From Gemmatimonadota bacterium (lineage in GTDB: Bacteria > Gemmatimonadota > Gemmatimonadetes > Longimicrobiales > Gaopeijiaceae), in NCBI GenBank assembly GCA_022825135.1, contig JAJDYN010000029.1:1-64000 (forward strand): a stretch of DNA of 64,000 nt, in the 5' to 3' direction. Below the pieces are notes generated by a model. It had not been told where the DNA came from. It worked only from the letters and a program-made list of their open reading frames with translations, and ran no database searches. The translations under genes were made by a program, and so were the position numbers. Below, in pieces: positions 10,660 through 37,670 of this stretch. Within the stretch, counting starts at the first letter, position 1. Each line of letters opens with the position of its first letter.

Positions 10660-13101
10660 ATGAAGATCCTCAACCCTGGCGCTGTTTTGATCGGTGGCCT
10701 CCTTCTGACGGGAGCCGGGATCGGCACGAATACCGGCCCCACGGCACCCGATGGGAAAGCGGTTGCACCGCCGGACGCGGCGCACGCTTCCTCCGTGCCC
10801 ACGGAGGAGCTGACCACGGTCGTGCGCACCTACTGCCAGGTCTGCCACAACGACGCGCTGCTGACAGGCAACGTTTCGTTCGCCGAATTCACCGTCGAGG
10901 GCGCTTCCGACAACGCCCAGCTCGCGGAACGCATGATCCGCAAGCTGCGTGCAGGCATGATGCCGCCTCCGGGCATGCCGAGGCCGGAACCCGAGGTCCT
11001 GCTTTCACTTGTCGAGACACTTGAGAAGAACGTGGACGACGCCTATCGGCGGCATCCCAATCCTGGCGTCCGGACCTTCCAGAGGCTGAATCGGGCCGAG
11101 TACTCCGCGGCCATCCGCGAGCTGTTGGGAATCGAGGTCGACGCCGGGGTGTGGCTTCCGCTCGACCAGATGAGCGAGAACTTCGACAACATAGCCGACG
11201 TCCAGGCGCTCACCCCGACTCATCTCGACGCCTATCTGAACGCCGCCAGCGAAGTGAGCCGCCTGGCGGTCGGGAGCCCGAACGTCGATCCCACCGACGC
11301 CACCTACAACACCTCGCCGTACGGTTCCCAGCACGCCTGGGAGTACGTCGAGGGAGCGCCCTACGGAACCCGCGGCGGCATCGTGGTGACCCACGACTTC
11401 CCGGCCGACGGCGAGTACATCGTCACCCCGGTGATCGAGGGCGGGCGTAGCGCCCGGTACGAGGACGTGGACATCTCCATCGACGGAGAGCCCATCGCCC
11501 TGCTGGCGGCCGGCCCCTTCCCTCGCGGAGGCGCCGACTTCCGCGGCGGTTCGCCCATCAAGACAAACCCGACCTTCATCCGCGCCGGACAGCGCACGGT
11601 GTCGGCCGCCTTTGTGCGGCGAATCGACGGGCCCTACGACGACCTGATCAAGCCGCCCGAGTGGTCCCTGGCGGGCGGCGCCGGCGGGAGCCCCGGCCAG
11701 ACCACCCTTCCGCACCTGAAGAGCCTCATCATCAGCGGTCCCTACAACGTCACCAGCGTGTCGGAGACCGAGGCTCGCCGCCGCATCTTCAGTTGCCGGC
11801 CCACTACGCCCGAGGGAGAGCGTCCGTGTGCCGAGCAGATCATCGACCAGATCGGAAGCGCGGCCTACAGGCGTCCCCTGGACGAACGCGACATGGCCGG
11901 GCTGATGGCGTTCTACGACGATGGCGCCACTGAATCCGGTTTCGAGACCGGGGTCCGCCGCGCGCTCCAGGCCATCCTTGCGAGCCCGCACTTCATCTTC
12001 CGCATCGAGAGACAGCCCGAGGGCATCAAGGCGGGCGAGCGCTACGAAATCAGCGACCTGGCTCTGGCGACCCGCATGGCCGCGTTCCTCTGGGGTACCC
12101 AGCCCGACGCCGAGCTGATCGACCTCGCCGAGCGCGGAAGGCTCCAGAACGACAGGGAACTGGAGAGGCAGACCCGGCGGATGCTGGCCGATCCCAAGGC
12201 CGAGGCGCTCGGACCGCGCTTTGCCGCCCAGTGGTTCCGACTGCAGGACCTCGACAAGGTGCACCCGGACTCCTACTGGTTCCCGAACTACAGCCAGCAG
12301 CTGGCCGACGCCATGCGCACCGAGACCGAGATGTTCTTCAACAGCCTCGTGCGCGACGACCGCAGCGTTCTGGACCTCTATACCGCCGATTACACCTACG
12401 TGAACGAACGTCTGGCCAGGCACTACGGCATTCCGGGCGTGCTCGGCGACGAGTTCCGACGTGTGGAGTACCCCGACAGCCGGCGCGGTGGCGTCATGGG
12501 GCAGGGGTCCATCCTGGTCCTCACCTCGATGGGCACGCGCACCTCTCCGGTACTGCGCGGGAAGTGGGTGATGGAGGTGCTGCTGGGTACGCCACCGCCA
12601 CCGCCACCGCCCGACGTCCCGGCGCTCGAGGAGACCGAGGGCGCCACGGACGGACGCTTCCTGACCACGCGGGAGCGCATGGAGATCCACCGGGCTAATC
12701 CCACCTGCCACGCCTGCCATCAGTTCATGGATCCGATCGGGCTCGCGCTCGACAACTTCGACGTGACCGGAAAGTGGCGCATCCGTGAGAACAACATGGC
12801 GCTCGACACTCGCGGCAACCTTTACGACGGCACGCCGTTGACGGCCCCGGAAGACCTCAGGGAAGCGCTCATGCAGCGGCCCATCCCGCTGGTGCGCACG
12901 TTCACTACGAACCTGCTGGCGTATGCGCTGGGTCGGCGCGTAGAATATCACGATCAACCGACCGTGCGCGCGATCGCGCGGGAGGGCGAAGAGGATGACT
13001 ACCGCATCTCGTCCTTCATCATCAACGTGGTCAAGAGCGACCCGTTCCGGATGAGGATGGCGGACGTGGTCGCCGAAGAAGAGATGGAGACCGAACGATA
13101 A
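10660..13101 (+). CDS. Cassette 1: DUF1592-family (planctomycete-type) dihaem cytochrome-like protein
   Basis: The 813-residue product is exported (hydrophobic N-terminus, LIGGLLLTGAGIGT). A first c-haem motif CQVCH at 59-63 is followed by a DUF1587 block (RTFQRLNRAEYSAAIRELLG, about 148-167). A beta-rich central region (GTRGGIVVTHDFPADGEY) then leads to DUF1595-like (AAYRRPLDERDMAGLMAFYD), DUF1592 (LATRMAAFLWGTQPDAELI) and DUF1588 (GSILVLTSMGTRTSPVLRGK) blocks. The DUF1588 block contains a heptaproline, and the second haem motif CHACH is at 683-687. A C-terminal DUF1585 block follows (FTTNLLAYALGRRVEYHDQP). This is the full PSD/PSCyt architecture first named in planctomycetes, whose biochemical function is unknown. 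It begins a three-gene unit with the DUF1552 and ankyrin genes, 71 and 17 bases apart, and has two paralogues in the window. Confidence 0.93.
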   Translation: MKILNPGAVLIGGLLLTGAGIGTNTGPTAPDGKAVAPPDAAHASSVPTEELTTVVRTYCQVCHNDALLTGNVSFAEFTVEGASDNAQLAERMIRKLRAGMMPPPGMPRPEPEVLLSLVETLEKNVDDAYRRHPNPGVRTFQRLNRAEYSAAIRELLGIEVDAGVWLPLDQMSENFDNIADVQALTPTHLDAYLNAASEVSRLAVGSPNVDPTDATYNTSPYGSQHAWEYVEGAPYGTRGGIVVTHDFPADGEYIVTPVIEGGRSARYEDVDISIDGEPIALLAAGPFPRGGADFRGGSPIKTNPTFIRAGQRTVSAAFVRRIDGPYDDLIKPPEWSLAGGAGGSPGQTTLPHLKSLIISGPYNVTSVSETEARRRIFSCRPTTPEGERPCAEQIIDQIGSAAYRRPLDERDMAGLMAFYDDGATESGFETGVRRALQAILASPHFIFRIERQPEGIKAGERYEISDLALATRMAAFLWGTQPDAELIDLAERGRLQNDRELERQTRRMLADPKAEALGPRFAAQWFRLQDLDKVHPDSYWFPNYSQQLADAMRTETEMFFNSLVRDDRSVLDLYTADYTYVNERLARHYGIPGVLGDEFRRVEYPDSRRGGVMGQGSILVLTSMGTRTSPVLRGKWVMEVLLGTPPPPPPPDVPALEETEGATDGRFLTTRERMEIHRANPTCHACHQFMDPIGLALDNFDVTGKWRIRENNMALDTRGNLYDGTPLTAPEDLREALMQRPIPLVRTFTTNLLAYALGRRVEYHDQPTVRAIAREGEEDDYRISSFIINVVKSDPFRMRMADVVAEEEMETER

Positions 13102-13172: not shown

Positions 13173-14603
13173 ATGCAATTCATCACCGGCAAGCACATCC
13201 CCCGCCGCACCTTCCTGCGCGGGATGGGCGCAACAGTGGCACTCCCGCTGCTCGACTCCATGCTTCCCGCGGCGAACCCGTGGGCGGCCAGGAAGCTGGC
13301 GGAGGGCAAGACGCGTCTTCTCGCGATCGAGGTCGTGCACGGAGCTGCCGGCAGCGTCGAATGGGGCGCCAAGCAGTTCCTCTGGGAGCCCGAGAAGACC
13401 GGGCGCGACTTCCAGCTCGCGGCGCAGAGCGCGCTGACGCCGCTCGAGGACTGGCGCCGGTATCTGACGATTGTCAGCAACACGGACGTTCGCATGGCCG
13501 AAGCCTTCACCGGCCCCGAGATCGGCGGCGATCACTTCCGCTCCAGCGCCACCTTCCTGACCCAGGCGCACCCGAAGCAGACCCAGAGTTCCGACCTGTA
13601 CGTCGGCACGTCGCTCGACCAGATGTTCGCCAAGCGCTTCGGACAGGACACGCCGCTCCCCTCCATGCAGCTCTGCATCGAGGATCTCGACCAGGCCGGC
13701 GGCTGCACGTACAACTACTCGTGCGCCTACACGGACTCGATCAGCTGGGCCTCGCCGAGCGAGCCGCTGCCGATGATCCGCGATCCGCGCACCGCCTTCG
13801 ATCTGCTCTTCGGTGCCGGCGGCACCCCGGAGGAGCGTCAGGCGCGCCGCCGCGAAAACGCGAGCATCCTCGACTGGATCGTCGGTGAAGTCGCCTACCT
13901 GAGGCGCGAGCTGGGCGCGACCGACCGCCGGCGCATGGACCAGTACCTGGACAACGTGCGCGAGATCGAGCGCCGCATCCAGATGGTCGAGGCTCAGAAC
14001 TCGAGCGGAGAGCAGCGTGAGCTTCCCGAGGCTCCCGCCGGCGTGCCGGACTCCTTCACCGAGCACATGCAGATGATGTTCGACCTGCAGGTGCTGGCGC
14101 TGCAGTCCGACATGACGCGCGTCTTCTCCTTCAAGACCGGCCGCGACGCGTCCAACCGCATCTATCCGGAGAGCGGCACCGACAGCCCGTTCCACCCGAC
14201 GTCGCACCACGGCAACAACGAGGAGACCATCCTCGACTTCAACACCATCAACCGGTTCTACGTGGGCCTGCTCCCCTACCTCCTGGAGAAGCTGCACGAC
14301 AGCCAGGACGGCGACTCGAGCCTGCTCGACCAGACCATGATCATCTACGGGTCCCCCATGGGAGACCCCAACATCCATAACCATCGCCGGTGCCCGCTGT
14401 TGCTCATGGGCGGTGCGAACGGCCAGCTCGCAGGCAACATGCACCTGAAGGCGCCGGATGGAACCCCGATGGCCAACGTCTTCCTGAACGTGATGCACAA
14501 GCTCGGCTTCGACGAAATGTCCAGCTTCGGCGACAGCACGGGCGAGTTCAACGTGCCGAGTTCGGTGTTGACCGCGGTCGAAGAGGCAAGTCAGTCACGC
14601 TAA
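13173..14603 (+). CDS. Cassette 1: DUF1552 (HXXSHH) Tat-exported protein
   Basis: The 476-residue product begins after CAGGAGAG. It carries a twin-arginine-type signal, HIPRRTFLRGMGATVALP, which would send a folded protein to the periplasm. The body is a DUF1552 domain with the conserved HPTSHHGNN motif (His341, Ser344, His345, His346), the DHFRSSATFLTQAHPKQ block and a C-terminal YGSPMGDPNIHNHRR segment. DUF1552 proteins resemble the alkaline-phosphatase/DUF1501-like fold, and in other genomes they also lie directly after DUF1592 genes. The His-rich motifs suggest a metal site, which is inference. Together with the preceding dihaem-type protein and the following ankyrin protein it forms a repeated unit. 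Confidence 0.92.
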   Translation: MQFITGKHIPRRTFLRGMGATVALPLLDSMLPAANPWAARKLAEGKTRLLAIEVVHGAAGSVEWGAKQFLWEPEKTGRDFQLAAQSALTPLEDWRRYLTIVSNTDVRMAEAFTGPEIGGDHFRSSATFLTQAHPKQTQSSDLYVGTSLDQMFAKRFGQDTPLPSMQLCIEDLDQAGGCTYNYSCAYTDSISWASPSEPLPMIRDPRTAFDLLFGAGGTPEERQARRRENASILDWIVGEVAYLRRELGATDRRRMDQYLDNVREIERRIQMVEAQNSSGEQRELPEAPAGVPDSFTEHMQMMFDLQVLALQSDMTRVFSFKTGRDASNRIYPESGTDSPFHPTSHHGNNEETILDFNTINRFYVGLLPYLLEKLHDSQDGDSSLLDQTMIIYGSPMGDPNIHNHRRCPLLLMGGANGQLAGNMHLKAPDGTPMANVFLNVMHKLGFDEMSSFGDSTGEFNVPSSVLTAVEEASQSR

Positions 14604-14620: not shown

Positions 14621-16414
14621 ATGAAGAAGAGATTGCACGTACACGCGCTGGCGGCGGTCGCCGTCAGCATGCTGCTCACGTCGGCGCCCGCGCTCGACTC
14701 GCCCCTGGCGGACGCCGCCATGAAGGGCGATGCCACGGGCGTGCGAACCCTGCTGGCGAGCGGGGCGGACGTGAACGCCGCTCGCGGGGACGGCATGACC
14801 GCCCTGCACTGGGCGGCCGAAACCGGCAACGCGGAGATCGCCGAGATCCTGGTGAGCGCAGGGGCGATCCTCGAGGTCACGACCCGCTTGGGGGCCTACA
14901 CGCCTCTGCACGTCGCCGGCAGAAAGGGTGCCGCGGAGGTCGTCCGGGTGCTCCTGGACGCCGGGGCGGACCCGCGCTCGGTCGCTTCCACCGGGTCTAC
15001 CCCGCTGCACCTCGCGGCGGGCGCGGGCAGCGCGCAAGGGGCAAAGTACCTGCTCGACGCAGGTGCCGAGATCGACGCGCGCGCCGGCGACGCCCAGCAA
15101 ACGCCCCTGATGTTCGCGGCGGCTGCCGACCGTGCCGATGTCGTCCGGCTCCTCGTGGAGCATGGGGCGGATCCGAACATCACGACCACCCTCATGGAAG
15201 CCGCCACCCGGTCGGCGGTGGACAACTATGCGGGCGAGCGCATGCAGGAGGTGCTCGACGCCTTCAAGGGGGACGGTAACGAACTGCCGACTCCCGCCCA
15301 GATCCAGGCCGCTCTGGAGGTTGCCCGGGCCGTGCAGCGCGCCGGCGTGGTGCCGGAGCCAGAGGAAGATGAGGATGAGGATGACCCCAGGGCCTTCTTC
15401 CGCCAGCCTCCCGACGACAAGTGGGGGAGCCTGACCGCGCTGCACCACGCGGCGCGCGAAGGGGCCGTCAATGCGGCGATGGCGTTGCTGGACGGCGGCG
15501 CCGATATCGACTTCGTCACCGAGGCCGACGCCACGAGCCCCCTCACGATGGCGGTCATCAACGGCCGCTTCGACTTGGCGATGAAGCTGCTCGAGCGCGG
15601 GGCCGATCCCAATCTGGCGACAGTTGACGGCGTTGCGCCGCTTTACGCCACCTTCAACGTCCAGTGGTCGCCGCGGTCACGCTACCCGCAGCCGCGCGCG
15701 CACGAGCAGCAGGAGACGGAGTATCTGGAGCTGGCCATGGCGCTGCTCGAGGCCGGAGCGGATGTGAACTTCCAGGTGACGAATAACTTCTGGTACTTCA
15801 CCTACAGCGGGTGTGGCAACGGCAACTGCGGGCTTGAGAACCAGGACGGCGTGACACCCTTCTGGCGCGCCTCCCGCGCTCTCGACATCGATGGCATGAA
15901 GCTGCTGCGCTCGTGGGGCGCGGACTGGAACATCGCCACCGTCAAGCAGCCCGAGCGCCGCCGGGGCCGCAACCCGCGCACGGGCGACACCGAAGACGAG
16001 GAACAGGTCGATCCTTCAGGGTTGCCGCCGGTCCCGGTTGGCGGACCCGCCGTGTACCCGATTCACGCCGCCTCGGGCGTCGGCTACGGCGAGGGCTTCG
16101 CCGGCAACGCCCACACCCACATCCCCGGCAACTGGATCGCCGCGGTCGAGTACCTGCTCGAGTTGGGGGCCGACGTCAACCAGCGGGACGCCAATGGATA
16201 CACGCCGCTGCACCACGCGGCCGCTCGCGGAGACACCGAGATGATCCAGTGGCTGGTGGACCGCGGCGCCGACGTGATGGTGGTGAGCCGCAGGGGACAG
16301 ACCACGGTCGACATGGCCAATGGTCCGGTCTCGCGCGTGACTCCCTATCCGGACGCGATCGCCCTGCTGGAGAGCATGGGCGCGATCAACAACAACAACT
16401 GCGTGTCCTGCTAG
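14621..16414 (+). CDS. Cassette 1: secreted ankyrin-repeat protein with C-terminal CxSC
   Basis: The 597-residue product starts with a signal peptide (MKKRLHVHALAAVAVSMLL) and then the conserved DSPLADAAMKGD at the mature N-terminus. About five ankyrin repeats follow (GMTALHWAAETGNAEIAEIL, TPLHVAGRKGAAEVVRVLL). An acidic, low-complexity linker (EPEEDEDEDDP) comes next, then more repeats with long insertions. The C-terminal block carries YPIHAASGVGYGEGFAG and NAHTHIPGNW, two last repeats, and the exact C-terminus NNNNCVSC. Ankyrin repeats bind proteins, so a scaffold role for the two upstream products is plausible. All three paralogues share the start, the His block and the Cys-x-Ser-Cys end. 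Only a weak ribosome binding site is visible, so translation may be coupled to the DUF1552 gene 17 bases upstream. Confidence 0.92.
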   Translation: MKKRLHVHALAAVAVSMLLTSAPALDSPLADAAMKGDATGVRTLLASGADVNAARGDGMTALHWAAETGNAEIAEILVSAGAILEVTTRLGAYTPLHVAGRKGAAEVVRVLLDAGADPRSVASTGSTPLHLAAGAGSAQGAKYLLDAGAEIDARAGDAQQTPLMFAAAADRADVVRLLVEHGADPNITTTLMEAATRSAVDNYAGERMQEVLDAFKGDGNELPTPAQIQAALEVARAVQRAGVVPEPEEDEDEDDPRAFFRQPPDDKWGSLTALHHAAREGAVNAAMALLDGGADIDFVTEADATSPLTMAVINGRFDLAMKLLERGADPNLATVDGVAPLYATFNVQWSPRSRYPQPRAHEQQETEYLELAMALLEAGADVNFQVTNNFWYFTYSGCGNGNCGLENQDGVTPFWRASRALDIDGMKLLRSWGADWNIATVKQPERRRGRNPRTGDTEDEEQVDPSGLPPVPVGGPAVYPIHAASGVGYGEGFAGNAHTHIPGNWIAAVEYLLELGADVNQRDANGYTPLHHAAARGDTEMIQWLVDRGADVMVVSRRGQTTVDMANGPVSRVTPYPDAIALLESMGAINNNNCVSC

Positions 16415-16440
16415 GAGACGCGTAGACGCGATCTGCGCAG

Positions 16441-26122: not shown

Positions 26123-28549
26123 ATGAATGCACTCTCTGGCGCCACGGCCGTCCTGGGCGTCGCCCTGTTGGTCGGCGCAAACGGAAGCGGCTTGTTCACG
26201 GACGCCCCTCCCGCTCCGCCACCTCCCGCGGACTACGCGGCCGCCGTCCCCGACCTCCCCGCCGCCACCCTCACCGAGGTTGTGGCCCGGTACTGCCAGG
26301 TCTGCCACAACGACGCCCTCCTGACCGGCAACATGACCCTGTCGGGCTTCCAGGTGGAAGCGGCCGCGCAGAACGCCGAGACCGCGGAGCGCATGATCCG
26401 CAAGCTGCGTGCCGGCATGATGCCCCCGCCCGGCATGCCCCGTCCCGCCGGCGACACCCTGCTGGCCCTGGTCGAGACGCTTGAGAATACCATAGACGAT
26501 GCCGCTCGCCGCGATCCCAACCCCGGGGGACGCACCTTCCAGCGCCTCAACCGGGCGGAATACGCGCAGTCGGTGAAGGACCTGCTCGGCCTCGACGTCG
26601 ACGCCGGCGAGTACCTTCCCCTGGACACCAAGAGCGCCAACTTCGACAACATCGCCGACGTGCAGATGCTCTCGCCGACGCTGCTGGAGGCGTACCTCAA
26701 CGCGGCCAGCGAGATCAGCCGGCTGGCGATCGGGGACCGCGAGGCCTCGCCGCGCGAGGTGGCCTACAAGGTCGAGAAGCGCGCGTCGCAGCTCGTCCAT
26801 GTGGAAGGCACGCCCTACGGCTCGCGCGGCGGCATCGCCATCAACCATACCTTCCCGGCCGACGGGGAGTACGTGTTCTGGATGCAGTTCCACGGCGTGG
26901 GCGGCAGGGCGGCCGGCGAGAAGATCGAGATCTCCTTCGACGGGGAGCGGGTGGCCCTCCTGGACGTGAACCTGCGCGGCGGGACGGAGAACGAGCAGCA
27001 GGGCCGGGAGATGGTCACCGACCCGATCTTCGTGCGCGCCGGTCCCCGCCAGGTGTCCGCCTCGTTCGTGAGGACCTTCGAGGGGCCGGTGGAGGAAGTG
27101 CGCGCACCGCTCGGACGCGCCGTCAACAGCGGATGGCCCGACCTGGCGCTCACCACGGTGCCGCACCTGCGCGAGTTCGCGGTGCGCGGCCCCAACAACG
27201 TTACGGGCGTATCGGAGACGCCGAGCCGGGAGAAGATCTTCAGCTGCCGCCCGACCTCGCCTGAAGAGGCGCCAGGATGCGCCCGCAGCATTTTCTCGCG
27301 CCTGGCCTCCGAGGCCTACCGGCGGCCCGCCACCGACAGCGACATCGCGGACCTGATGGCTTTCTACGAGATCGGAGCCGAGGAGGGAGGTTTCGAACGC
27401 GGCATTCGCTTCGCGCTTCAGGCGCTCCTGGCCAGCCCCCACTTCGTATTCCGCTTCGAGGAACCGCCCTCGGGCACGCGCGCCGGGGAGCAATACGAGC
27501 TCGATGGCGCCGCGGTCGCCTCGCGGCTGTCCTTCTTCCTCTGGGGCTCTCCCCCGGATGAAGAGCTGATGGAGGCGGCCCGTCGCGGGAGGCTTGACGA
27601 CGAAGATGAACTCGAGCGTCAGGTCCGCCGGATGCTGGCGGATCCCCGCTCCGAAGCACTCTCGACCCGCTTCGCATCGCAGTGGCTGCGCCTGCAGGAC
27701 CTGGACAAGGTGGCGCCGGACATCTACACCTTCCCGTACTTCGATCTGACGCTGTCGGACGCGATGAGGCGCGAGACCGAACTCTTCTTCCAGAATCTGG
27801 TGCAAGAGGACCGCAGCCTGCTCGAAATTCTCACCGCGGACTACACCTTCGCGAACGAGCGGCTCGCCGCCCACTACGGCATTCCCGGCGTCGCCGGCAA
27901 CAGCTTCCGGCGCGTCGCGTATCCGGACGGCCGCCGCAGCGGGCTCCTCGGACAGGGCAGCATCCTGATGCTCACCTCGATGGCGAACCGCACGTCGCCC
28001 GTGTTGCGGGGCAAGTGGGTCATGGAGGTGCTTCTGGACTCTCCGCCTCCGCCGCCTCCGCCCGACGTCCCCGCCCTTGAGGCCACCGAAGGCACGGAGG
28101 AAGGCAAGGTCCTGACCACGCGCGAGCGCATGGAGAAGCACCGCGCCAGCCCGGTGTGCCAGGCCTGTCACCAGTTCATGGATCCCATCGGCCTGGCGCT
28201 GGACAACTTCGACGTGACCGGGGAGTGGCGGGTGCGCGAGTACGGCATGCCGCTCGACACCCGGGGCACCTTCTACGACGGAACAACCGTGGCGAGCCCG
28301 GGCGACCTGCGCGACGTGCTGCTCAAGCGCCCCATCCCGATCGTGCGCGCCTTTGCCAAGAACCTGATGGCGTACGCGCTCGGGCGCCGCGTGATGCATT
28401 ACGACCAGCCTGCGATCCGCGAAATCACGCGCGAGGCGGAGGCCAACGACTACCGGATGTCGTCGTTCATACTGGGCGTGGTCCAGAGCGACGCGTTCTC
28501 CATGAAGCGTACGGATGCGCTCCTCACGGAGGAGACGTCATCCAACTGA
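26123..28549 (+). CDS. Cassette 2: DUF1592-family dihaem cytochrome-like protein
   Basis: The 808-residue product starts at ATG 26123, 7 bases after GGAGG at 26111-26115. It repeats the order of its cassette 1 paralogue: signal anchor (ATAVLGVALLVGANGSGL), proline-rich stretch, haem motif CQVCH at 58-62, and DUF1587 (FQRLNRAEYAQSVKDLLGL). The central beta region follows (YGSRGGIAINHTFPADGEYV), here with a cluster of charged residues, then DUF1595/1592 (ASRLSFFLWGSPPDEELME) and DUF1588 with a hexaproline. The second motif is CQACH and the DUF1585 end carries VMHYDQPAIREITREAE. DUF1552 follows after 31 bases. It heads the tandem six-gene run to 37670. Confidence 0.93.
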   Translation: MNALSGATAVLGVALLVGANGSGLFTDAPPAPPPPADYAAAVPDLPAATLTEVVARYCQVCHNDALLTGNMTLSGFQVEAAAQNAETAERMIRKLRAGMMPPPGMPRPAGDTLLALVETLENTIDDAARRDPNPGGRTFQRLNRAEYAQSVKDLLGLDVDAGEYLPLDTKSANFDNIADVQMLSPTLLEAYLNAASEISRLAIGDREASPREVAYKVEKRASQLVHVEGTPYGSRGGIAINHTFPADGEYVFWMQFHGVGGRAAGEKIEISFDGERVALLDVNLRGGTENEQQGREMVTDPIFVRAGPRQVSASFVRTFEGPVEEVRAPLGRAVNSGWPDLALTTVPHLREFAVRGPNNVTGVSETPSREKIFSCRPTSPEEAPGCARSIFSRLASEAYRRPATDSDIADLMAFYEIGAEEGGFERGIRFALQALLASPHFVFRFEEPPSGTRAGEQYELDGAAVASRLSFFLWGSPPDEELMEAARRGRLDDEDELERQVRRMLADPRSEALSTRFASQWLRLQDLDKVAPDIYTFPYFDLTLSDAMRRETELFFQNLVQEDRSLLEILTADYTFANERLAAHYGIPGVAGNSFRRVAYPDGRRSGLLGQGSILMLTSMANRTSPVLRGKWVMEVLLDSPPPPPPPDVPALEATEGTEEGKVLTTRERMEKHRASPVCQACHQFMDPIGLALDNFDVTGEWRVREYGMPLDTRGTFYDGTTVASPGDLRDVLLKRPIPIVRAFAKNLMAYALGRRVMHYDQPAIREITREAEANDYRMSSFILGVVQSDAFSMKRTDALLTEETSSN

Positions 28550-28580: not shown

Positions 28581-30008
28581 ATGAACTTCCTCACCGGCAA
28601 ACACATCCACCGGCGTACTTTCCTGCGCGGGATGGGCGGATCCCTCGCGCTCCCGCTCCTGGACGCCATGGTGCCCGCGGGCGCGGGATGGGCCCGGGCT
28701 TCGGCCAACCTGGAGAAGACCCGCTTCGTGGCCGTCGAGATCGTGCACGGCGCCTCCGGATGCACGGAATGGGGCGCGACCCAGAACCTGTGGTCGCCCG
28801 CGAAGACCGGGCGCGACTTCGACCTGAGCCCCACGGCCATGAAGTCGCTCGCGCCCTTCCAGGACTACCTTACGATCGTCAGCAACACGGACGTGCGCAT
28901 GGCGGACGCCTACACCTCGCCCGAGATCGGCGGCGATCACTTCCGCTCGAGCGCGACCTTCCTCACCCAGGCGCACGCGAAGCAGACCGAGGGATCGGAC
29001 GTCTTCGTGGGAACCTCGATGGACCAGTTGTTCGCGCAACGCTTCGGCCAGGAGACGCCGATTCCGTCGATGCAGCTCTGCATCGAGAACGTGGATCAGG
29101 CGGGCGGATGCGCCTACGGCTACGCCTGTGTGTACACCGACACCCTGAGCTGGGCCTCCCCCACCGAGCCGCTGCCGATGATCCGCGACCCGCGGGTGGC
29201 CTTCGACATGCTCTTCGGAGCGGGCGGAACCCCCGAGGCGCGCGCCGAGCGCCGGCAGGCCAACCGCAGCATCCTGGACTGGATCGCGGGCGAGGTGGCC
29301 GAGCTGAGGATGGTGCTGGCCGGGGAGGACCGGGTGCGGCTGGAGCAGTACCTGGACAACGTGCGGGAGCTCGAGCGCCGCATCCAGATGATCGAGGAGC
29401 AGAACGCGAGCGGCGAAGAACGGGCTCTGCCGGAAGCCCCGGCGGGCGTCCCCGACTCCTTCACCGAGCACTTGCAGCTCATGTTCGATCTGCAGGTGCT
29501 GGCCTTCCAGACCGACATGACCCGGGTCTTCACCCTCAAGCTCTCGCGCGACGCCACCAACCGGGTGTATCCCGAGAGCGGGCTGGATCTGCCGTTCCAC
29601 CCGACCTCGCACCACGGCAACAACCGTGAGGAGATCCTCAAGTTCCAGCAGTTCAACGAGTTCTTCACGGGACAGATGCTGTACCTGCTGGAGAAGATGG
29701 ACGAATCGATGGACGGGGACGCGAGCCTGCTCGACCGCAGCATGGTGCTGTACGGATCGCCCATGGGCGATCCCAACGTCCACAACCACCGGCGGGTGCC
29801 CATGTTCCTCGCCGGCAAGGCCAACGGCCAGCTCGAGGGCAACCTGCACCTGCACGCACCCGACGACACGCCCATGGCCAACGTGATGCTCACCATGCTG
29901 CACAAGCTGGGGCTGGACGATCTGGAGGACTTCGGGGACAGCACCGGCGAATTCGCGCTGACGCTGCCCGCGGTGGCGGCCGCCGACGCAAGCAGCTCGA
30001 GCCGATGA
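28581..30008 (+). CDS. Cassette 2: DUF1552 (HXXSHH) Tat-exported protein
   Basis: The 475-residue product starts at ATG 28581 with GGGAGG at 28568-28573. The Tat signal HIHRRTFLRGMGGSLALP is followed by the family blocks GGDHFRSSATFLTQAHAKQ, EAPAGVPDSFTEH, the signature HPTSHHGNN, and YGSPMGDPNVHNHRRVP. The sequence tracks the cassette 1 copy along its whole length with conservative changes. The NASGEERALPEAPAG loop also occurs in all three copies with small differences. Probably a folded, possibly metal-containing periplasmic protein. Its chemistry is unknown. Confidence 0.92.
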   Translation: MNFLTGKHIHRRTFLRGMGGSLALPLLDAMVPAGAGWARASANLEKTRFVAVEIVHGASGCTEWGATQNLWSPAKTGRDFDLSPTAMKSLAPFQDYLTIVSNTDVRMADAYTSPEIGGDHFRSSATFLTQAHAKQTEGSDVFVGTSMDQLFAQRFGQETPIPSMQLCIENVDQAGGCAYGYACVYTDTLSWASPTEPLPMIRDPRVAFDMLFGAGGTPEARAERRQANRSILDWIAGEVAELRMVLAGEDRVRLEQYLDNVRELERRIQMIEEQNASGEERALPEAPAGVPDSFTEHLQLMFDLQVLAFQTDMTRVFTLKLSRDATNRVYPESGLDLPFHPTSHHGNNREEILKFQQFNEFFTGQMLYLLEKMDESMDGDASLLDRSMVLYGSPMGDPNVHNHRRVPMFLAGKANGQLEGNLHLHAPDDTPMANVMLTMLHKLGLDDLEDFGDSTGEFALTLPAVAAADASSSSR

Positions 30009-30075: not shown

Positions 30076-31836
30076 ATGAGAGGGATGATGCGCGAAAAGG
30101 GAATGAAGGCGGGAGCAGGGAGAATGGATACCGGAAGGCCGGGGGCGCTTGTGGCCGCCCTGGCTTTGACGCTCCTGGTTTCGGCGGCGACGCCGCCGGA
30201 CTCGCCGGTCGCGGACGCGGCCATGCGCGGCGATCAAGGGTCGGTGCGCGCGCTGCTGCAGCAGGGCGCGGATGTAAACGCCGCCCAGGGCGACGGCATG
30301 ACCGCCCTCCACTGGGCGGCCGACCGCGGCGACCTCGAGATGGCGCGGATGCTCGTCTACGCGGGCGCCGGCCTGGAGGCGGTGACCCGCATGGCGGAGT
30401 ACACGCCCCTGCACCTGGCCAGCCGTGCGGGCCACGGGGCGGTGGTGCGCGCGCTGCTCGAGGCGGGAAGCGACCCGGCGGCACCTACCGGCAGCGGCGG
30501 CGCCACTCCCCTGCACCTGGCGGCCGCCGCGGGTGATGCGGAAGCGGTTGCCGCGCTCATCGAGCACGGCGCCAACGTGGACGCGCGCGAGGAGCGGGCC
30601 GGGCAGACGCCGCTCATCTTCGCCGCGGCGCAAAACCGGGTCGAGGCGATCCGGGCGCTGCTCGCGGGCGGGGCCGACCCGTCGCTCACCACCACGGTGG
30701 TGGACATGGTCGAGCTGGAGGAATCCCTCCGGGGCGGCGAACAGGACCGGGTGCGCCAGCAGATCAACGCGCAACTCGCGGCCAGGGCGGCGCAGGAACA
30801 GAAGGAGAGCGAAGAGGAAGAGAAGCCGGCCGAGGCCCCCAAACCCCTCTCCATGGGGCAGCAGGTGGGGCACATGGGCGGCATGACCGCGCTGTTGCAC
30901 GCGGCGCGTCAGGGTCACGCCGGGGCCGTCGAGGCGCTCCTCGACGCAGGGAGCGACATCGACCAGGTCAGCGCGGACGGGACCACGCCCATCTTCATCG
31001 CCGCCCTGAACGGCCACTACGACCTGGTCCTCGCGCTGCTGGAGCGCGGCGCCGACCCGAACCTGGCCAACCACGCCAACGGGACGCCCCTCTTCGCCAC
31101 CATCAACCAGCAGTGGATCCCGAAGACCGGGTACGCCCAGCCCAACGTTCACCTCCAGCAGAACGCCACCCATATGGAGGTCATGGAGGCGCTCCTGCGG
31201 GCGGGAGCCGACCCGAACGCGCGCCTCTCCAAGCGCCTTTGGTTCACCCAGTACGGCGGGAGCATCCTGAGCGTCAACATGATCGGGGCCACGCCCTTCT
31301 GGCGCGCCTCCTACGCGGCCGATGTCGCCGCGATGCGGCTGCTGGTGGCGTACGGGGCCGACCACCGCGTTCCGACGCAGAGGCCGCCGGCGCGCCGCCG
31401 CATCGCCTGGGACGAGGATCCGGGGGCGGACAAGTCGGGGATTCCCGCAGTACCGGTCGGCGGCCCGGGGATTTATCCCATTCACGCGGCTTCCGGTGTC
31501 GGCTACGGGCAGGGGTTCGCGGCCAACGCCCACCGCCACGCGCCCGACGGCTGGATGCCCGCGATGCGCTACCTGGTGGATGAGTTGGGGGCGGACGTTA
31601 ACGTGCGTGATCACGACGCCTACAACGCGCTGCATCACGCGGCCTCGCGCGGAGACACCGAGATGATCCGCTTCCTGGTGGAGCGCGGCGCGGACGTGAT
31701 GGCGATCAGCCGCATCGGCCAGACGACCGCCGACATGGCCAACGGGCCCTACCAGCGCACCACGCCCTATCCGGATGCGATCGCGCTGCTGGAGTCGTTC
31801 GGTTCCCTGAACAACAACAACTGCCAGTCCTGCTGA
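30076..31836 (+). CDS. Cassette 2: secreted ankyrin-repeat protein with C-terminal CxSC
   Basis: The 586-residue product starts after CTGGAGAG. The N-terminus has an extra 25-residue basic leader before the signal hydrophobic core (ALVAALALTLLVSAATP). The mature start DSPVADAAMRGD is the same as in the paralogues. Ankyrin repeats include GMTALHWAADRGDLEMARML and TPLHLASRAGHGAVVRALL. A Lys/Glu-rich linker (KESEEEEKPAEAPKP) replaces the acidic linker of copy 1. The C-terminal part has YPIHAASGVGYGQGFAA, NAHRHAPDGW, two repeats and the exact end NNNNCQSC. The next gene starts 31 bases on, so this ankyrin gene is likely co-transcribed with cassette 3. Confidence 0.92.
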   Translation: MRGMMREKGMKAGAGRMDTGRPGALVAALALTLLVSAATPPDSPVADAAMRGDQGSVRALLQQGADVNAAQGDGMTALHWAADRGDLEMARMLVYAGAGLEAVTRMAEYTPLHLASRAGHGAVVRALLEAGSDPAAPTGSGGATPLHLAAAAGDAEAVAALIEHGANVDAREERAGQTPLIFAAAQNRVEAIRALLAGGADPSLTTTVVDMVELEESLRGGEQDRVRQQINAQLAARAAQEQKESEEEEKPAEAPKPLSMGQQVGHMGGMTALLHAARQGHAGAVEALLDAGSDIDQVSADGTTPIFIAALNGHYDLVLALLERGADPNLANHANGTPLFATINQQWIPKTGYAQPNVHLQQNATHMEVMEALLRAGADPNARLSKRLWFTQYGGSILSVNMIGATPFWRASYAADVAAMRLLVAYGADHRVPTQRPPARRRIAWDEDPGADKSGIPAVPVGGPGIYPIHAASGVGYGQGFAANAHRHAPDGWMPAMRYLVDELGADVNVRDHDAYNALHHAASRGDTEMIRFLVERGADVMAISRIGQTTADMANGPYQRTTPYPDAIALLESFGSLNNNNCQSC

Positions 31837-31867: not shown

Positions 31868-34357
31868 GTGAAAAACGTCACGACTGTCGGACTGCTGGGC
31901 CTGATATCGGTTGTACTGGGAACCTTCGGGGACCTTGACACGGTCACCGACGCCGGTCCGGGGTCGGGCCGGGCCGTGGTGGACAGAGCCGGCTACGCGC
32001 CGACTTCGGGCTTTTCCCACGCCCCCATCGCGCCGGCCACCCTTACCGCCGTGGTGCAGCGCTACTGCCAGGTATGCCACAACGACGCGCTCCTGACCGG
32101 CAACCTCTCGCTCGCCGGATTCGACGTGGAGCAGGCGCCGTCGCGGCCCGAGACCGCGGAGAAGATGATCCTCAAGCTGCGTGCGGGGATGATGCCGCCC
32201 CCCGGCATGCCCCGGCCCGTGGGCGACACCCTCGTGGCGCTGGTGGAGGAGCTGGAGGCGAGGATGGACGCGGCCGCGCGCGAGGCGCCCAACCCCGGCG
32301 GACGCACCTTCCAGCGGCTCAACCAGGCCGAGTACGCGAGGTCGATCGAGGATCTTCTGAACCTGCGCATCGACGCCGGCGACTATCTGCCGCCCGATAC
32401 CAAGAGCGCGAACTTCGACAACATCTCCGAGGCGCAGCTGCTCTCGCCCACGCTCCTCGACGCATACATGAACGCGGCCAACCAGATCAGCCGCCTGGCC
32501 ATCGGCAACCCCGGCGCCCAGCCTGCCGAGCGGACCTACACGGTCTCCGGCTACGTCTCCCAGAACGAGCGGGTGCCGGGGGCGCCCTACGGCACCCGCG
32601 GCGGCGTGAGCGTCGTCCACCACTTCCCCGCGGACGGCACCTACCAGTTCCGCATCGTCTTCGAGCATACCACCACGGGGGAGGGCTTCTTCGGCCAGAT
32701 CGCCCGCTTCGAGCAGCTCGAGGTCTCGATCAACGGCGAGCGGGTGGCGCTGCTGGACGTGGACCAGTGGATGCACATCTCCGATCCGGAAGGCATCTCC
32801 ATGCGCACCGATCCGGTCTTCGTGCGCGCCGGGCCGCAGCGGGTGACCGCGGCTTTCGTCAAGCGCACCGAGGGACCGGTGGAAGACCTCATGTCACCCC
32901 ACGAATGGTCGCTGGCGGACCGGCACACGGGCATCAGCGGCTACGGGCTGACGCTGCTTCCACACCTTCGGGACCTGGTGATCGGCGGACCCATCGACGC
33001 GTCAGGGGTCTCGGAGACCCCGAGCCGTCAACGGATCTTCACCTGCCGCCCCGAGTCGGCGGAGGAGAGCGAGAGCTGCGCGCGCAGCATCCTGACGGAG
33101 CTTGCCGGCAAGGCATATCGCCGTCCCCTGCTCGAGCGCGACATCGCGCCGCTCATGGCCTTCTACCGCACCGGAGAGGCGGAGGGGGGCTTCGAGGCGG
33201 GCATCGGGACCGCCCTGACGGCCATCCTGGCGAGCCCGCACTTCGTGTTCCGCATGGAGGAGGCGCCGGCCGACATCCAGCCGGGCGAGACGTTCCGGAT
33301 CGGCGACGTGGATCTGGCTTCGCGGCTGTCCTTCTTCCTCTGGGGCACGCCCCCGGACGACGAGCTCATGGCGCTGGCGCGGGAAGGCGCGCTTTCACGG
33401 GACCAGGTCCTGGAAGCGCAAGTGCGGCGCATGCTGGCCGATCCGCGCGCGGCTTCCCTGGGACCCCGGTTCGCGGGCCAGTGGCTGCGGCTGCAGGATC
33501 TGGAGTTGGTGCGTCCGGACCAGTTCTGGTTCCCCGATTACGACCAGCAGCTCGCCGACGCCATGCTGCGTGAAACCGAGCTGTTCTTCAACCATCTGGT
33601 CGAAGCAGACAGAAGCGTCCTCGATCTGTACGACGCCGACTACACCTTCGCGAACGAGCGCCTGGCGCGGCACTACGGCATCCCCGGAGTGCTGGGCAGC
33701 CAGTTCCGGCAGGTGGCGTATCCCGGCTCCGAGCGGCGGGGCGTGCTGGGTCACGGGAGCATCCTCACCCTCACTTCGGTGGCGAACCGGACCTCGCCCG
33801 TGTTGCGCGGCAAGTGGGTCATGGAAGTCCTTCTGGGGACGCCTCCGCCCCCTCCGCCCCCGGGCATCCCGGACCTCGAGGAAACCGAGGACTCGGAGGG
33901 CGGACGCATGCTCACCACCCGGGAGCGCATGGAGAAGCACCGCGCCAACCCGGTCTGCAACGCCTGCCACCAGTTCATGGATCCCATCGGGCTGGCGCTG
34001 GACAACTTCGACGTGACCGGCAGGTGGCGCATCCGCGAGCACGGCATGCCGCTCGACACGAGAGGCACCTTCTACGACGGCAGCACGGTCGAGAGCCCGG
34101 GCGACCTGCGCGAGGCGCTCCTGCGGCGGCCGGAACCGCTCATCCGCACGTTCACCGCGAACCTGATGACCTACGCGCTGGGCCGCAGAACCGAGTACTA
34201 CGATCAGCCCGCCATCCGCGCCATCGTGGCGGAGGCGGCGGAAGATGAATACAGAATGTCGTCCTTCATCGCGGGCGTGGTGAAGAGCGACGCCTTCAGA
34301 TCCAAGAGGGTACCCGAGGCGCTGGCGGAGAGCGCCCCGCAGCCGCCCGAACGGTAG
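31868..34357 (+). CDS. Cassette 3: DUF1592-family dihaem cytochrome-like protein
   Basis: The 829-residue product uses a GTG start at 31868, with only weak ribosome-binding sequence upstream. A hydrophobic N-terminus (VGLLGLISVVLGTFGDL) precedes haem motif CQVCH at 67-71. DUF1587 (FQRLNQAEYARSIEDLLNL) follows, and the central beta region is extended by about 20 residues relative to the other copies (FEHTTTGEGFFGQIARFEQ). DUF1595/1592/1588 blocks end in a hexaproline segment, then the second haem motif CNACH and the DUF1585 end (ALGRRTEYYDQPAIRAI). The three copies differ mainly in this central insert, which might set the partner or substrate. Confidence 0.93.
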   Translation: MKNVTTVGLLGLISVVLGTFGDLDTVTDAGPGSGRAVVDRAGYAPTSGFSHAPIAPATLTAVVQRYCQVCHNDALLTGNLSLAGFDVEQAPSRPETAEKMILKLRAGMMPPPGMPRPVGDTLVALVEELEARMDAAAREAPNPGGRTFQRLNQAEYARSIEDLLNLRIDAGDYLPPDTKSANFDNISEAQLLSPTLLDAYMNAANQISRLAIGNPGAQPAERTYTVSGYVSQNERVPGAPYGTRGGVSVVHHFPADGTYQFRIVFEHTTTGEGFFGQIARFEQLEVSINGERVALLDVDQWMHISDPEGISMRTDPVFVRAGPQRVTAAFVKRTEGPVEDLMSPHEWSLADRHTGISGYGLTLLPHLRDLVIGGPIDASGVSETPSRQRIFTCRPESAEESESCARSILTELAGKAYRRPLLERDIAPLMAFYRTGEAEGGFEAGIGTALTAILASPHFVFRMEEAPADIQPGETFRIGDVDLASRLSFFLWGTPPDDELMALAREGALSRDQVLEAQVRRMLADPRAASLGPRFAGQWLRLQDLELVRPDQFWFPDYDQQLADAMLRETELFFNHLVEADRSVLDLYDADYTFANERLARHYGIPGVLGSQFRQVAYPGSERRGVLGHGSILTLTSVANRTSPVLRGKWVMEVLLGTPPPPPPPGIPDLEETEDSEGGRMLTTRERMEKHRANPVCNACHQFMDPIGLALDNFDVTGRWRIREHGMPLDTRGTFYDGSTVESPGDLREALLRRPEPLIRTFTANLMTYALGRRTEYYDQPAIRAIVAEAAEDEYRMSSFIAGVVKSDAFRSKRVPEALAESAPQPPER

Positions 34358-34443
34358 GCGCGCGGGCGGCCGGAGGGCGGAAGACGCGCCCGGCCGCCCC
34401 GCCCATCCCCGAGCGGCGACGAAACCATCCGAGGAGAGTGGAG

Positions 34444-35877
34444 ATGCACTTCATCACCGGGACACACATTCCCCGCCGTACCTTCCTGCGCGGGGCCGGC
34501 GCGACCGTCGCCCTGCCCTTCCTGGACGCCATGATCCCTGCGGGGAGCGTCTGGTCGCGGCGCGCGGCCGCCGAGCCCGCCACCCGCCTGGTGGCCATCG
34601 AGATGGTGCACGGAGCGGCGGGATGCAACGAGTGGGGCGCCACCCAGTACCTGTGGTCTCCCGAGGCGACCGGCCGCAACTTCGACCTCTCCCCCGGTTC
34701 GCTGCTTCCGCTGGAGCCCTACCGCGACCGTCTCACCATCATCAGCAATACCGACGTGCGGATGGCCGAGGCCAGGATGCCGCACGAGATCGGCGGCGAC
34801 CACTTCCGCTCGAGCGCCGTCTTCCTGACGCAGGCTCATCCCAGGCAGACACGGGGTTCGGACGTGTTCGCCGGCACCTCCATGGACCAGGTGCACGCGC
34901 AGCGCTTCGGGCAGGACACGCCCATCCCGTCGATGCAGCTCTGCATCGAGAACGTGGATCAGTCGGGAGGTTGCGCGTACGGCTACTCGTGCGTCTACAC
35001 CGACACCATCAGCTGGGCCTCGTCCACCGAGCCGCTTCCCATGATCCGCGACCCGCGGGTGGCGTTCGAGATGCTCTTCGGGGCCGGAGGAACGCCGGAG
35101 GAACGCGCGGCGCGCAGGCGCACCGACGGGAGCATTCTGGACTGGATCGCCGGCGAAGTCGCGTATCTCAGACGGGCGCTGGCACAGGACGACCAGCAGC
35201 GCCTCGACCGCTACCTGGAGAACGTCCGCGAGCTGGAGCGCCGGATCGAGGGCATCGAGACTCGCAACACCAGCGGGGAGCCGCGCGAGCTGCCCGAGGC
35301 GCCGGCGGGGGTCCCGGACTCCTTCACCGAACACATGCAGCTCATGTTCGACATCCAGGTGCTCGCCTTCGCGTCCGACGTCACGCGCGTGTTCTCCTTC
35401 AAAACCGGGCGCGATGCGTCTTCGCGGGTCTACACCGAGAGCGGCATCGACAAGGCTTTTCACCCGGCCTCGCACCACGGAGGGAACGAGGAGGCGATTC
35501 TCGACTTCGCCCGCATCAACACCTTCCAGGCGGGGCAGCTTCCGTATCTCCTGCAGAAGCTGGAAGAGACGACGGAGGGCGACGCCACGCTGCTCGACAA
35601 GACCATGGTCATCTACGGTTCGCCGATGGCGGACGGGAACCTGCACAATCACCGCCGCTGCCCGCTCATCGTGCTGGGCGGCGCGAACGGACGCCATGAG
35701 GGCGGGCTGCACCTGAAGGCTCCCGACGGCACCCCCATGGCCAACGTGATGTTGAGCATGCTGCATGCCCTGGGGCACGACGACAGGGACAGCTTCGGAG
35801 ACAGCACGGGCGAGTTCCGGTTGAGCTACCCGGCAATGGCCGCCGAGGCTGCCGGCCGCTCCAACCAGGGCCGCTGA
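34444..35877 (+). CDS. Cassette 3: DUF1552 (HXXSHH) Tat-exported protein
   Basis: The 477-residue product starts at ATG 34444 with GAGGAG at 34431-34436, 7 bases away. A GTG two codons earlier is less well placed. Tat signal HIPRRTFLRGAGATVALP and the signature here read HPASHHGGN, with Thr replaced by Ala and Asn by Gly relative to copies 1 and 2. DHFRSSAVFLTQAHPRQ and YGSPMADGNLHNHRR are also diverged. The same Cys-rich stretch QSGGCAYGYSCVYTD is kept in all three copies. Its stop overlaps the ankyrin start by one base (TGATG), so the last two genes are translationally coupled. Confidence 0.92.
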   Translation: MHFITGTHIPRRTFLRGAGATVALPFLDAMIPAGSVWSRRAAAEPATRLVAIEMVHGAAGCNEWGATQYLWSPEATGRNFDLSPGSLLPLEPYRDRLTIISNTDVRMAEARMPHEIGGDHFRSSAVFLTQAHPRQTRGSDVFAGTSMDQVHAQRFGQDTPIPSMQLCIENVDQSGGCAYGYSCVYTDTISWASSTEPLPMIRDPRVAFEMLFGAGGTPEERAARRRTDGSILDWIAGEVAYLRRALAQDDQQRLDRYLENVRELERRIEGIETRNTSGEPRELPEAPAGVPDSFTEHMQLMFDIQVLAFASDVTRVFSFKTGRDASSRVYTESGIDKAFHPASHHGGNEEAILDFARINTFQAGQLPYLLQKLEETTEGDATLLDKTMVIYGSPMADGNLHNHRRCPLIVLGGANGRHEGGLHLKAPDGTPMANVMLSMLHALGHDDRDSFGDSTGEFRLSYPAMAAEAAGRSNQGR

Positions 35878-37670
35878 TGCGGTCGGGACGGACGGTGTCC
35901 CGGCGGAGACACGGGTTCCGGCTGAGCGCCGGAGCTGTTGCGCTTCTGCTGTGGGCCGCACCCGCCGCCGACTCGCCGGTGGCGGACGCGGCCATGCGGG
36001 GAGACGCAGAGGCCGTGGAAGCCCTGATCGCCCGGGGCGCCGACGTGAACGTCCCTCAGGGTGACGGCATGACCGCGCTGCACTGGGCCTCGGAGCGGGC
36101 CGACGCCGCCCTGGTGCGCGTCCTGCTGGGCGCCGGGGCCACCGTCGACGCCGTCACCCGCATCGGTGACTACACCCCGCTGCACCTGGCCGCCAAGGCG
36201 GGGAGCGCCGACGCCGTGGAGGCGCTGCTGGAGGCGGGAAGCGACCCCGTCGCGGCGACCGCAACAGGAGCGGTCACAGCCATGCACTTCGCGGCCGGAG
36301 CCGGCAGCGCGGATGCCGTCGCTTCCCTCGCCCGCCACGGCGCGGAAGTCGACGCCCGCGAGTCCGAGCGGGGACAGACGCCGCTCATGTTCGCCGCGGC
36401 CAACGATCGGATAGAGGCGGTGCGGGCGTTGTTGGCGCTGGGAGCCGACGTTGAACTCCGCACCCGGGTCGTGGACATCGTGGACCTCGCGGCCGTCGAC
36501 CGGGAGGCGGGGGAGGCGCGGGACGCAGTGCTGGAGGAGTTCCGCGCACAGGCGGAGGACCCGCGCTCCTGGCGGCCCTCGCCCAAGCAGGTGCAGGCCG
36601 CGGTACGAGCCGGCCACGAGGTACAGGCCTCCCGGTCGCGGGCCGCATCCGAACAGGAAGAGGTGGAGGTAGCCCCGGACGCCTTCCCCGGATACACGGG
36701 CCTGGTGGGCGCCCAGGGCGGGATGACGGCGCTCCTGCACGCGGTGCGCGAGGGGCATGTGGAGACGGTGCAGGTGCTGCTGGACGCAGGCGCGAATATC
36801 AACGGGGCGAGCGGCGGCGACCACACCAGCCCGCTGCTCATGGCCACCATCAACGGTCACTTCGACCTGGCCATGACTCTCCTCGGCCGGGGAGCCGATC
36901 CACGCACGGCGAGCGACGCGGGTGCGACTCCGCTCTACGCCACCATCAACGCCTACTGGGTCCCGAAGTCGCGCTATCCCCAGCAACAAGCCTACCAGCA
37001 ACAGCAGATCACCTACCTGGAGCTGATGGAAGCGCTGCTCGAAGCCGGCGCCGATCCCAACGCGCGCCTGACCCGGCACCTCTGGTACATGTCGTACACC
37101 TTCGATCTGTTGCGGGTGGACACTCAGGGCGCCACCCCCTTCTGGCGGGCCGCCTACGGGACCGACGTGGAAGCCATGAAGCTCCTCGTGGCGTACGGCG
37201 CGGATCCGTCGATCGCGACAATGAAGCCCCCCGAGCGGCGCAGGCGCGGTGCGGACGCCGAGGATCCGTCCGGACTGCCGCCGGTTCCGGTGGGAGGCCC
37301 CGGGGTGTACCCGATTCACGCCGCCTCGGGCGTGGGCTACGGGGAGGGCTACGCCGGCAACTCGCACAGGCACGCCCCGAACGGCTGGCTGCCCTCCGTC
37401 AGATACCTGGTCGAGGAGCTGGGGGTCGACGTGAACGCGCGCGACCACAACGGCTACAACGCCCTCCATCACGCCGCTGCGAGAGGGGACGTGGAGTTGA
37501 TCCGCTACCTCGCGGACAGGGGAGGCGACGTGATGGCGGTCAGCCGCCGGGGTCAGACGACCGCGGACATGGCGAACGGCCCGGTGCAGCGCATCCAGCC
37601 CTTCCCCGAGGCGCTGGCCCTGCTGGAAAGCCTGGGCGCGCACAACAACGACAACTGCCTGTCCTGCTGA
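35877..37670 (+). CDS. Cassette 3: secreted ankyrin-repeat protein with C-terminal CxSC
   Basis: The 597-residue product starts at ATG 35877, sharing a base with the DUF1552 stop. A basic N-terminus (RRRHGFRLSAGAVALLLW) forms the signal, and mature DSPVADAAMRGD follows. Repeats include GMTALHWASERADAALVRVL and TPLHLAAKAGSADAVEALL. The linker EQEEVEVAPDAFPG replaces the acidic linkers of the other copies. The conserved C-terminal part has YPIHAASGVGYGEGYAG, NSHRHAPNGW, two repeats and the exact end NNDNCLSC, so Asn-to-Asp is the only change in the Asn run. It ends the six-gene tandem unit; convergent genes begin 66 bases later. Confidence 0.92.
   Translation: MRSGRTVSRRRHGFRLSAGAVALLLWAAPAADSPVADAAMRGDAEAVEALIARGADVNVPQGDGMTALHWASERADAALVRVLLGAGATVDAVTRIGDYTPLHLAAKAGSADAVEALLEAGSDPVAATATGAVTAMHFAAGAGSADAVASLARHGAEVDARESERGQTPLMFAAANDRIEAVRALLALGADVELRTRVVDIVDLAAVDREAGEARDAVLEEFRAQAEDPRSWRPSPKQVQAAVRAGHEVQASRSRAASEQEEVEVAPDAFPGYTGLVGAQGGMTALLHAVREGHVETVQVLLDAGANINGASGGDHTSPLLMATINGHFDLAMTLLGRGADPRTASDAGATPLYATINAYWVPKSRYPQQQAYQQQQITYLELMEALLEAGADPNARLTRHLWYMSYTFDLLRVDTQGATPFWRAAYGTDVEAMKLLVAYGADPSIATMKPPERRRRGADAEDPSGLPPVPVGGPGVYPIHAASGVGYGEGYAGNSHRHAPNGWLPSVRYLVEELGVDVNARDHNGYNALHHAAARGDVELIRYLADRGGDVMAVSRRGQTTADMANGPVQRIQPFPEALALLESLGAHNNDNCLSC

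Follow-up and report, generated by a model that had tools for sequence, protein, structure and literature searches.

In a 64,000-nucleotide window of a Gemmatimonadota bacterium (family Gaopeijiaceae; GenBank assembly GCA_022825135.1, contig JAJDYN010000029.1, positions 1 to 64,000), a cassette of three genes, encoding a DUF1592 protein, a DUF1552 protein and an ankyrin-repeat protein, occurs three times, and we find that the ankyrin gene is a conserved third partner of one clade of DUF1552 genes. The DUF1592 and DUF1552 domain families are already known, without an assigned function. We propose, with a probability of roughly 0.45, that the trio forms an exported complex with oxidoreductase activity towards carbohydrates or glycoconjugates, in which the ankyrin protein is bound to DUF1552 and the copies are substrate-specific. 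The nine genes form units at 10660-16414, 26123-31836 and 31868-37670, in the order and on the strand given by a first-pass annotation made from the sequence alone, and the domain architectures that it predicted were found by Pfam in every unit. PSD3, PSD5, PSD4, PSCyt3 and PSD2 all exceed the Pfam cut-offs in each first gene, HXXSHH (PF07586) is above cut-off in each second gene, where the HxxSHH motif is present, and ankyrin repeats are found in each third gene. Inspection by eye likewise showed two CxxCH motifs per DUF1592 protein, an N-terminal RR motif in each DUF1552 protein and hydrophobic N-termini in the ankyrin proteins.

The source genome as a whole contains ten units, made up of ten DUF1592 places, ten DUF1552 places and ten long ankyrin relatives, four of which were matched as two pieces. 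The ankyrin gene lies directly 3' of DUF1552 in all ten units, and DUF1592 directly 5' of DUF1552 in eight. In the remaining two, a SusC/SusD-type pair (Pfam assignment made on the related locus L065) is found just 5' of DUF1552; it lies between DUF1592 and DUF1552 in the contig 23 unit, and it precedes DUF1552, with DUF1592 downstream, in the contig 37 unit. The paralogue amplification noted in the window is therefore larger than had been thought, with ten units here and up to 40 DUF1552 matches in one genome.

Among 150 genomes of the phylum, source included, DUF1552 occurs in 56 and the ankyrin, counted at E<=1e-40, in the identical set of 56. In other genomes, 80 loci gave 91 strong ankyrin matches, and 85 of these have a same-strand DUF1552 within 1.5 kb upstream; three of the other six lie at contig ends and three adjoin DUF1592 in a different arrangement. 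The ankyrin also adjoins the pair in 20/20 phylum DUF1552 loci that were chosen by hand, not drawn at random, with divergent orientation in three. In the complete Vicinamibacterales chromosome OY282382, 30 of 40 DUF1552 matches (one a short fragment) have their own ankyrin inside a 12-kb stretch; an ankyrin is present in 31 of the 40 stretches, but L166 uses the ankyrin of L152, that of L158 lies just beyond its stretch, and gaps of 1.6-3.3 kb occur in L149, L155 and L160. Among the ankyrin clusters listed for this chromosome, 30 of 36 adjoin a unit. In JAQWPL, a metagenome-assembled genome (MAG) titled Gammaproteobacteria, all 17 DUF1552 genes have an ankyrin beside the pair or within ~1.2 kb, and 18 of 19 distinct ankyrin open reading frames lie beside units compared to ~7% expected by area (distinct frames in both genomes were merged by eye). 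This adjacency is far beyond chance, with a rough binomial estimate of 2e-20 from approximate area. The trio is also plasmid-borne in Novosphingobium (sp. KACC 22771). Ankyrins 96-98% identical to that of unit 2 occur in records under the titles Gemmatimonadetes or Gammaproteobacteria bacterium; two of the records titled Gammaproteobacteria, L011 and L074, have a 96% identical ankyrin and the same two-unit tandem, and the titles of these MAGs are probably misplacements.

The extent of the linkage was delimited by a FastTree tree of 185 DUF1552 rows, in which one clade of 174 rows (support 99) has the ankyrin in 168, while ten of the 11 rows outside it are labelled without ankyrin and one is unlabelled. 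Ankyrin presence needs seven changes in total on this tree, for which most rows were collected through the ankyrin search and in which long branches occur among the rows without ankyrin. An ankyrin was counted if it lay within 2.5 kb (<=2.5 kb), and the labels of the second units of L174 and L106 took a neighbour's ankyrin. By these labels, 146 rows have a downstream ankyrin on the same strand and 2 a downstream ankyrin on the opposite strand; an upstream ankyrin stands on the opposite strand in 12 rows and on the same strand in 8. One of the 8 upstream same-strand labels and one of the 2 downstream opposite-strand labels are those that took a neighbouring ankyrin. Persistence of the link despite these changes of order and strand speaks for function over operon inertia.

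Outside the clade, the ankyrin is absent from DUF1592-DUF1552 pairs, which rules out an ankyrin fixed to all of them. DUF1552 occurs in 23 of 149 sampled genomes of the phylum of the Vicinamibacterales genome, and the ankyrin in 12 of 20 loci, which were chosen by hand and represent 20 of the 22 further matching genomes; seven of the eight loci without it have a low-scoring, distant DUF1552. The class to which JAQWPL belongs has DUF1552 in 6/274 genomes, and among the five other carriers the ankyrin was found in the sole high-scoring relative, where these loci are ~2.7-3.9 kb long and absence covers ~1.2 kb. Pairs in Planctomyces, Sphingobium and a second Novosphingobium plasmid are likewise without ankyrin in the stretches seen. 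The first-pass annotation had called the ankyrin a fixed third member, and had named rare or unlinked ankyrins elsewhere as the contrary outcome; the link instead holds in 168/174 clade rows and reaches other phyla, so that the statement stands for one DUF1552 clade but not for all DUF1592-DUF1552 pairs.

Members of a unit are also co-inherited. Within-genome paralogue distances of the three families are correlated in the source genome (r 0.83-0.88), in JAQWPL (0.73-0.79; 14 units, with two of 16 stretches dropped, one cut and one without DUF1592) and in OY282382 (0.41-0.89; 31 units, including L166 with its shared ankyrin), each with p 0.0005. With DUF1592 removed, the ankyrin-DUF1552 correlation is 0.61 in the source genome, 0.39 in JAQWPL and 0.13 in OY282382, and this last value implies that the link in OY282382 is mostly shared descent. 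Subtypes are matched across the trio as well. Units with long ankyrins number 103: 85 are class A (NNxNCxxC-like tail), 16 are class B (CxHTHFxDTGDxC-like tail) and two belong to neither class. At the site that reads VHG in the printed class A motifs, SMG stands in every one of the 16 class B units; the motif pattern failed to match 17 of the 85 class A units, and the 12 commonest motifs were printed. Fixed differences between the classes number nine in DUF1552 (461 columns) and four in DUF1592 (772 columns). Moreover, a two-cysteine element of DUF1552 (C177 and C183 in the unit 2 protein) occurs in 155/159 rows with ankyrin compared to 6/20 without, and these six rows all fall inside the ankyrin clade. 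A CxxC C-terminal end is found in 65 of 158 complete ankyrins, short ones included.

At the sequence level there is good support for the exported haem protein of the earlier description. By a simple home-made N-terminus rule, an export-like hydrophobic N-terminus is present in 141/151 DUF1592 proteins and 166/171 ankyrins, and 154/169 DUF1552 proteins have the RR motif. Two CxxCH motifs occur in all 151 DUF1592 proteins that pass a score, length and N-terminus filter. The first haem motif (haem 1) is followed by an invariant Met (M100) in a GMMPPPG setting, which we take to be typical of a His/Met electron-transfer haem, and the second (C679-C682-H683, D687) is kept in 21/21 proteins compared, haem-1-less ones included. 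An apparent loss of haem 1 in L204 is a trimming artefact, as two CxxCH motifs are present. A plasmid of Sphingobium herbicidovorans (L210:10406-14552) carries a DUF1592 gene apparently without haem 1, DUF1552, cytochrome c and cytochrome b. The separate cytochrome genes 3' of DUF1552 where haem 1 appears to be missing suggest that haem 1 passes electrons to the respiratory chain.

Structure models add two fold assignments. The unit 2 DUF1552 model has the core fold common to the alkaline phosphatase superfamily, in which the canonical two-metal/nucleophile positions look, by eye, to be replaced by His and Met. In the unit 2 DUF1592 model, residues 208-359, to which the structure matches are confined, form a beta-sandwich resembling carbohydrate-binding modules (CBM) of the CBM6/35/36 type, and this domain sits between the His/Met-type haem c and the second conserved haem motif. 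Sequence searches for solved relatives of DUF1592 and DUF1552 gave weak matches only, NCBIfam has no family for either unit 2 protein, and the DUF1552 profile did not match one neighbouring protein, presumably a sulfatase by its SPTR stretch. The two folds together fit a carbohydrate-acting oxidoreductase better than a generic assembly complex; of the "exported haem-enzyme or assembly complex" first suggested for the cassette, the exported haem protein is retained, and the generic assembly complex fits less well.

Table 1. Genes of the three cassette units in the window.
Feature	Position	Strand	Description
Unit 1 DUF1592 protein	10660..13101	+	exported, two CxxCH, DUF1587/1595/1592/1588/1585, 813 aa
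Unit 1 DUF1552 (HXXSHH) protein	13173..14603	+	RR (Tat-like) N-terminus, 476 aa
Unit 1 ankyrin-repeat protein	14621..16414	+	exported, 597 aa, C-terminal end NNNNCVSC
Unit 2 DUF1592 protein	26123..28549	+	two CxxCH, 808 aa; model: CBM6/35-like domain, residues 208-359
Unit 2 DUF1552 protein	28581..30008	+	475 aa; model: alkaline-phosphatase-superfamily fold
Unit 2 ankyrin-repeat protein	30103..31836	+	exported, 577 aa, C-terminal end NNNNCQSC
Unit 3 DUF1592 protein	31868..34357	+	two CxxCH, 829 aa
Unit 3 DUF1552 protein	34444..35877	+	477 aa
Unit 3 ankyrin-repeat protein	35877..37670	+	exported, 597 aa, C-terminal end NNDNCLSC

The starts in Table 1 (aa, amino acids) are the most likely ones for the three ankyrin genes and, after correction, for the DUF1552 genes in units 2 and 3. 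These two units lie in tandem, and the ankyrin start codon of unit 3 shares bases with the stop of the preceding DUF1552 gene (TGATG at 35875-35879). Elsewhere, a tandem DUF1552 duplicate lies within a single unit (L034:1299-4120), and one stop splits DUF1592 (L027:6169-8511) or DUF1552 (L029:8526-9947) in otherwise normal units, by sequencing error or decay. No gene fusions were noticed, without a search aimed at fusions.

Positions 16415-26122, between units 1 and 2, are outside the cassettes and contain a molybdopterin oxidoreductase gene (Oxidored_molyb, 22483-23592, +) with an RR-type N-terminus; two genes lie 5' of it, for a TonB-plug protein and for a protein that has no Pfam match (19134-21470 and 21473-22423). 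Unit 3 is followed by a glucose/sorbosone dehydrogenase (37740-39161, -) and a c-type cytochrome (40147-40545, +), and SusC/SusD-type pairs at 325-5213 (+) and 44295-48596 (-) flank the cassette region. Counted over 188 gene-called sources, the families that recur near units include SusC-like receptors (20 loci), S9-type peptidases (14), pyrroloquinoline quinone (PQQ) dehydrogenases (13), SusD-like proteins (11) and creatininase-like proteins (11), and MBL-fold genes recur as well. A ~320 aa family without Pfam match was found in 20 loci (cluster 1; L066:2557-3543 and 19 more), DUF5916 proteins with a CBM9-like region in 14 (cluster 3; L036:14479-16785 and 13 more), and a ~195 aa family without Pfam match directly 3' of the ankyrin in ten (cluster 8; L032:11854-12444), including one source-genome copy on contig 11 (L007:2645-3235). 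No neighbour family is as regular as the trio members, and no glycoside hydrolase is among the ten annotated neighbour clusters. Exported ankyrins in symbionts are often discussed as host-handling tools. A host-directed effector role was rejected here: type IV effector models match the ankyrin of unit 2 through its repeats alone, far below cut-offs, and the ankyrin genes adjoin exported redox genes.

In the complex that we propose, DUF1592 would hold the substrate through its predicted CBM6/35-like domain, its conserved C-terminal c-type haem would perform or assist the redox step, and its N-terminal His/Met-type haem c would deliver electrons to the respiratory chain. DUF1552, with its alkaline-phosphatase/sulfatase fold and invariant His-rich set, would be the standing partner and may handle an ester or polar group of the substrate. 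The exported ankyrin would be a clade-specific third subunit on DUF1552, probably near the two-cysteine element and the active-site face, where it might stabilise or mature the complex, as proposed for the ankyrins of catalases; a scaffold role is plausible. Each amplified unit would serve a different substrate, and the copies probably do differ in this respect. A bolder form of the proposal, which we hold to be unlikely, is a glycan-oxidising machine outside the inner membrane, composed of a carbohydrate-docking dihaem protein, an alkaline-phosphatase-fold subunit whose His/Met/Cys site is rebuilt and an ankyrin clamp, with up to ~30-40 substrate-tuned versions per cell forming an oxidative counterpart to polysaccharide utilisation loci.

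The sphingomonad gene context weighs against a carbohydrate substrate. The Sphingobium herbicidovorans plasmid pair and its cytochromes c and b lie amid genes for a Rieske oxygenase, a flavin monooxygenase, an SDR and a TonB receptor, which points to other substrates, and the recurrence of MBL-fold, PQQ-dehydrogenase and creatininase genes near units is also consistent with substrates such as aromatics, steroids, terpenoids or lipids. On this reading, DUF1552 would be an enzyme remodelled from the alkaline-phosphatase fold, and the role of the CBM-like domain would be purely structural or protein-binding. However, by hidden Markov model score the Sphingobium pair is distant from the ankyrin-associated pairs, and its DUF1592, besides apparently lacking the N-terminal haem, is gapped at the three compared sites of the CBM-like region, whereas the modelled DUF1592 of the window contains this domain. 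We therefore regard non-carbohydrate substrates as a minority possibility, to be taken seriously.

A role of the ankyrin in maturing or protecting the haem protein, through haem loading or peroxide shielding and not as a standing subunit, appears rather improbable. It has precedents in AnkB-KatB and Cj1386-KatA, and the cited passages report that ankyrin proteins encoded beside catalases interact with the catalase or deliver haem (PMC10294975, PMC3349705). An exported c-type haem protein is the partner in the trio, but what the ankyrin tracks is a DUF1552 clade and the features of DUF1552 rather than those of the haem, and DUF1592-DUF1552 pairs that fall outside this clade do without it. Moreover, attachment of c-type haem is carried out by the cytochrome c maturation system, with no dedicated ankyrin, and the ten source-genome ankyrins diverge with their own units, whereas a general haem factor could be shared. 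Finally, copy numbers from 10 to 40, tandem copies and the plasmid-borne Novosphingobium trio could reflect mobile or amplifying genes that hitch-hike without joint function, but this is very improbable given a link that outlasts changes of order and strand, divergent ones included, over three phyla (by record titles), together with co-inherited distances and matched subtype features.

The conserved third partner, the two fold assignments (sulfatase-like and CBM-like) and the clade rule make the function of DUF1592 and DUF1552 directly testable, and Sphingobium herbicidovorans is a culturable relative for function tests of a pair apparently without the N-terminal haem. If glycan oxidation is correct, many uncultured bacteria would own an unrecognised route of carbon turnover, to which 40 units of ~5.5 kb would commit an estimated 3-4% of the 6.1-Mb chromosome OY282382, and exported ankyrin proteins would gain a clear role.

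An ankyrin as third member of DUF1592-DUF1552 was not described in the open-access literature searched, and several known systems resemble parts of the trio. Planctomycete-type PSCyt3/PSD proteins (DUF1587/1592/1588/1585) share its domain families and high copy number, with a suspected link to carbohydrates, and in Verrucomicrobia PSCyt3 genes usually adjoin a particular family of unknown genes, according to the passages of PMC5615132 considered. We infer that this neighbour is DUF1552; the two genes are adjacent on a Planctomyces plasmid, and a DUF1552 gene appears in a table of a Rhodopirellula stress study (PMC2754498). In contrast to the trio, in which the ankyrin marks a DUF1552 clade with an extra two-cysteine element, the same passages name no ankyrin member (PMC5615132). 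Cbp2D, a c-type cytochrome of several domains, similarly combines a carbohydrate-binding module with a DUF1587 domain, and its X183 domain reduces lytic polysaccharide monooxygenases; the cited portion mentions no DUF1552 or ankyrin partner (PMC8981238), and in the trio's DUF1592 protein the CBM-like domain follows haem 1 and precedes the later PSD domains. SusC/SusD utilisation loci touch the system in 2/10 source units, where the pair adjoins DUF1552, and not in the other eight. DUF1552 has the core fold of the alkaline phosphatase superfamily (NPP, sulfatases), but its conserved His/Met/Cys set is, by eye, unlike the canonical sites. The closest parallel to the third gene is with ankyrin proteins beside or acting on catalases (AnkB-KatB, Cj1386-KatA and LIMLP_10150-KatE, in the cited excerpts), of which AnkB is termed periplasmic in a cited title (PMC10294975, PMC3349705). 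As in that family, exported ankyrin repeats (166/171 by the simple rule here) are encoded beside a haem enzyme. Unlike it, the partners are a DUF1592 protein with two c-type haem motifs and an alkaline-phosphatase-fold DUF1552 protein instead of a catalase, and the system comprises three genes in many copies; hence, we compare the trio with the AnkB/Cj1386 family and do not file it there.
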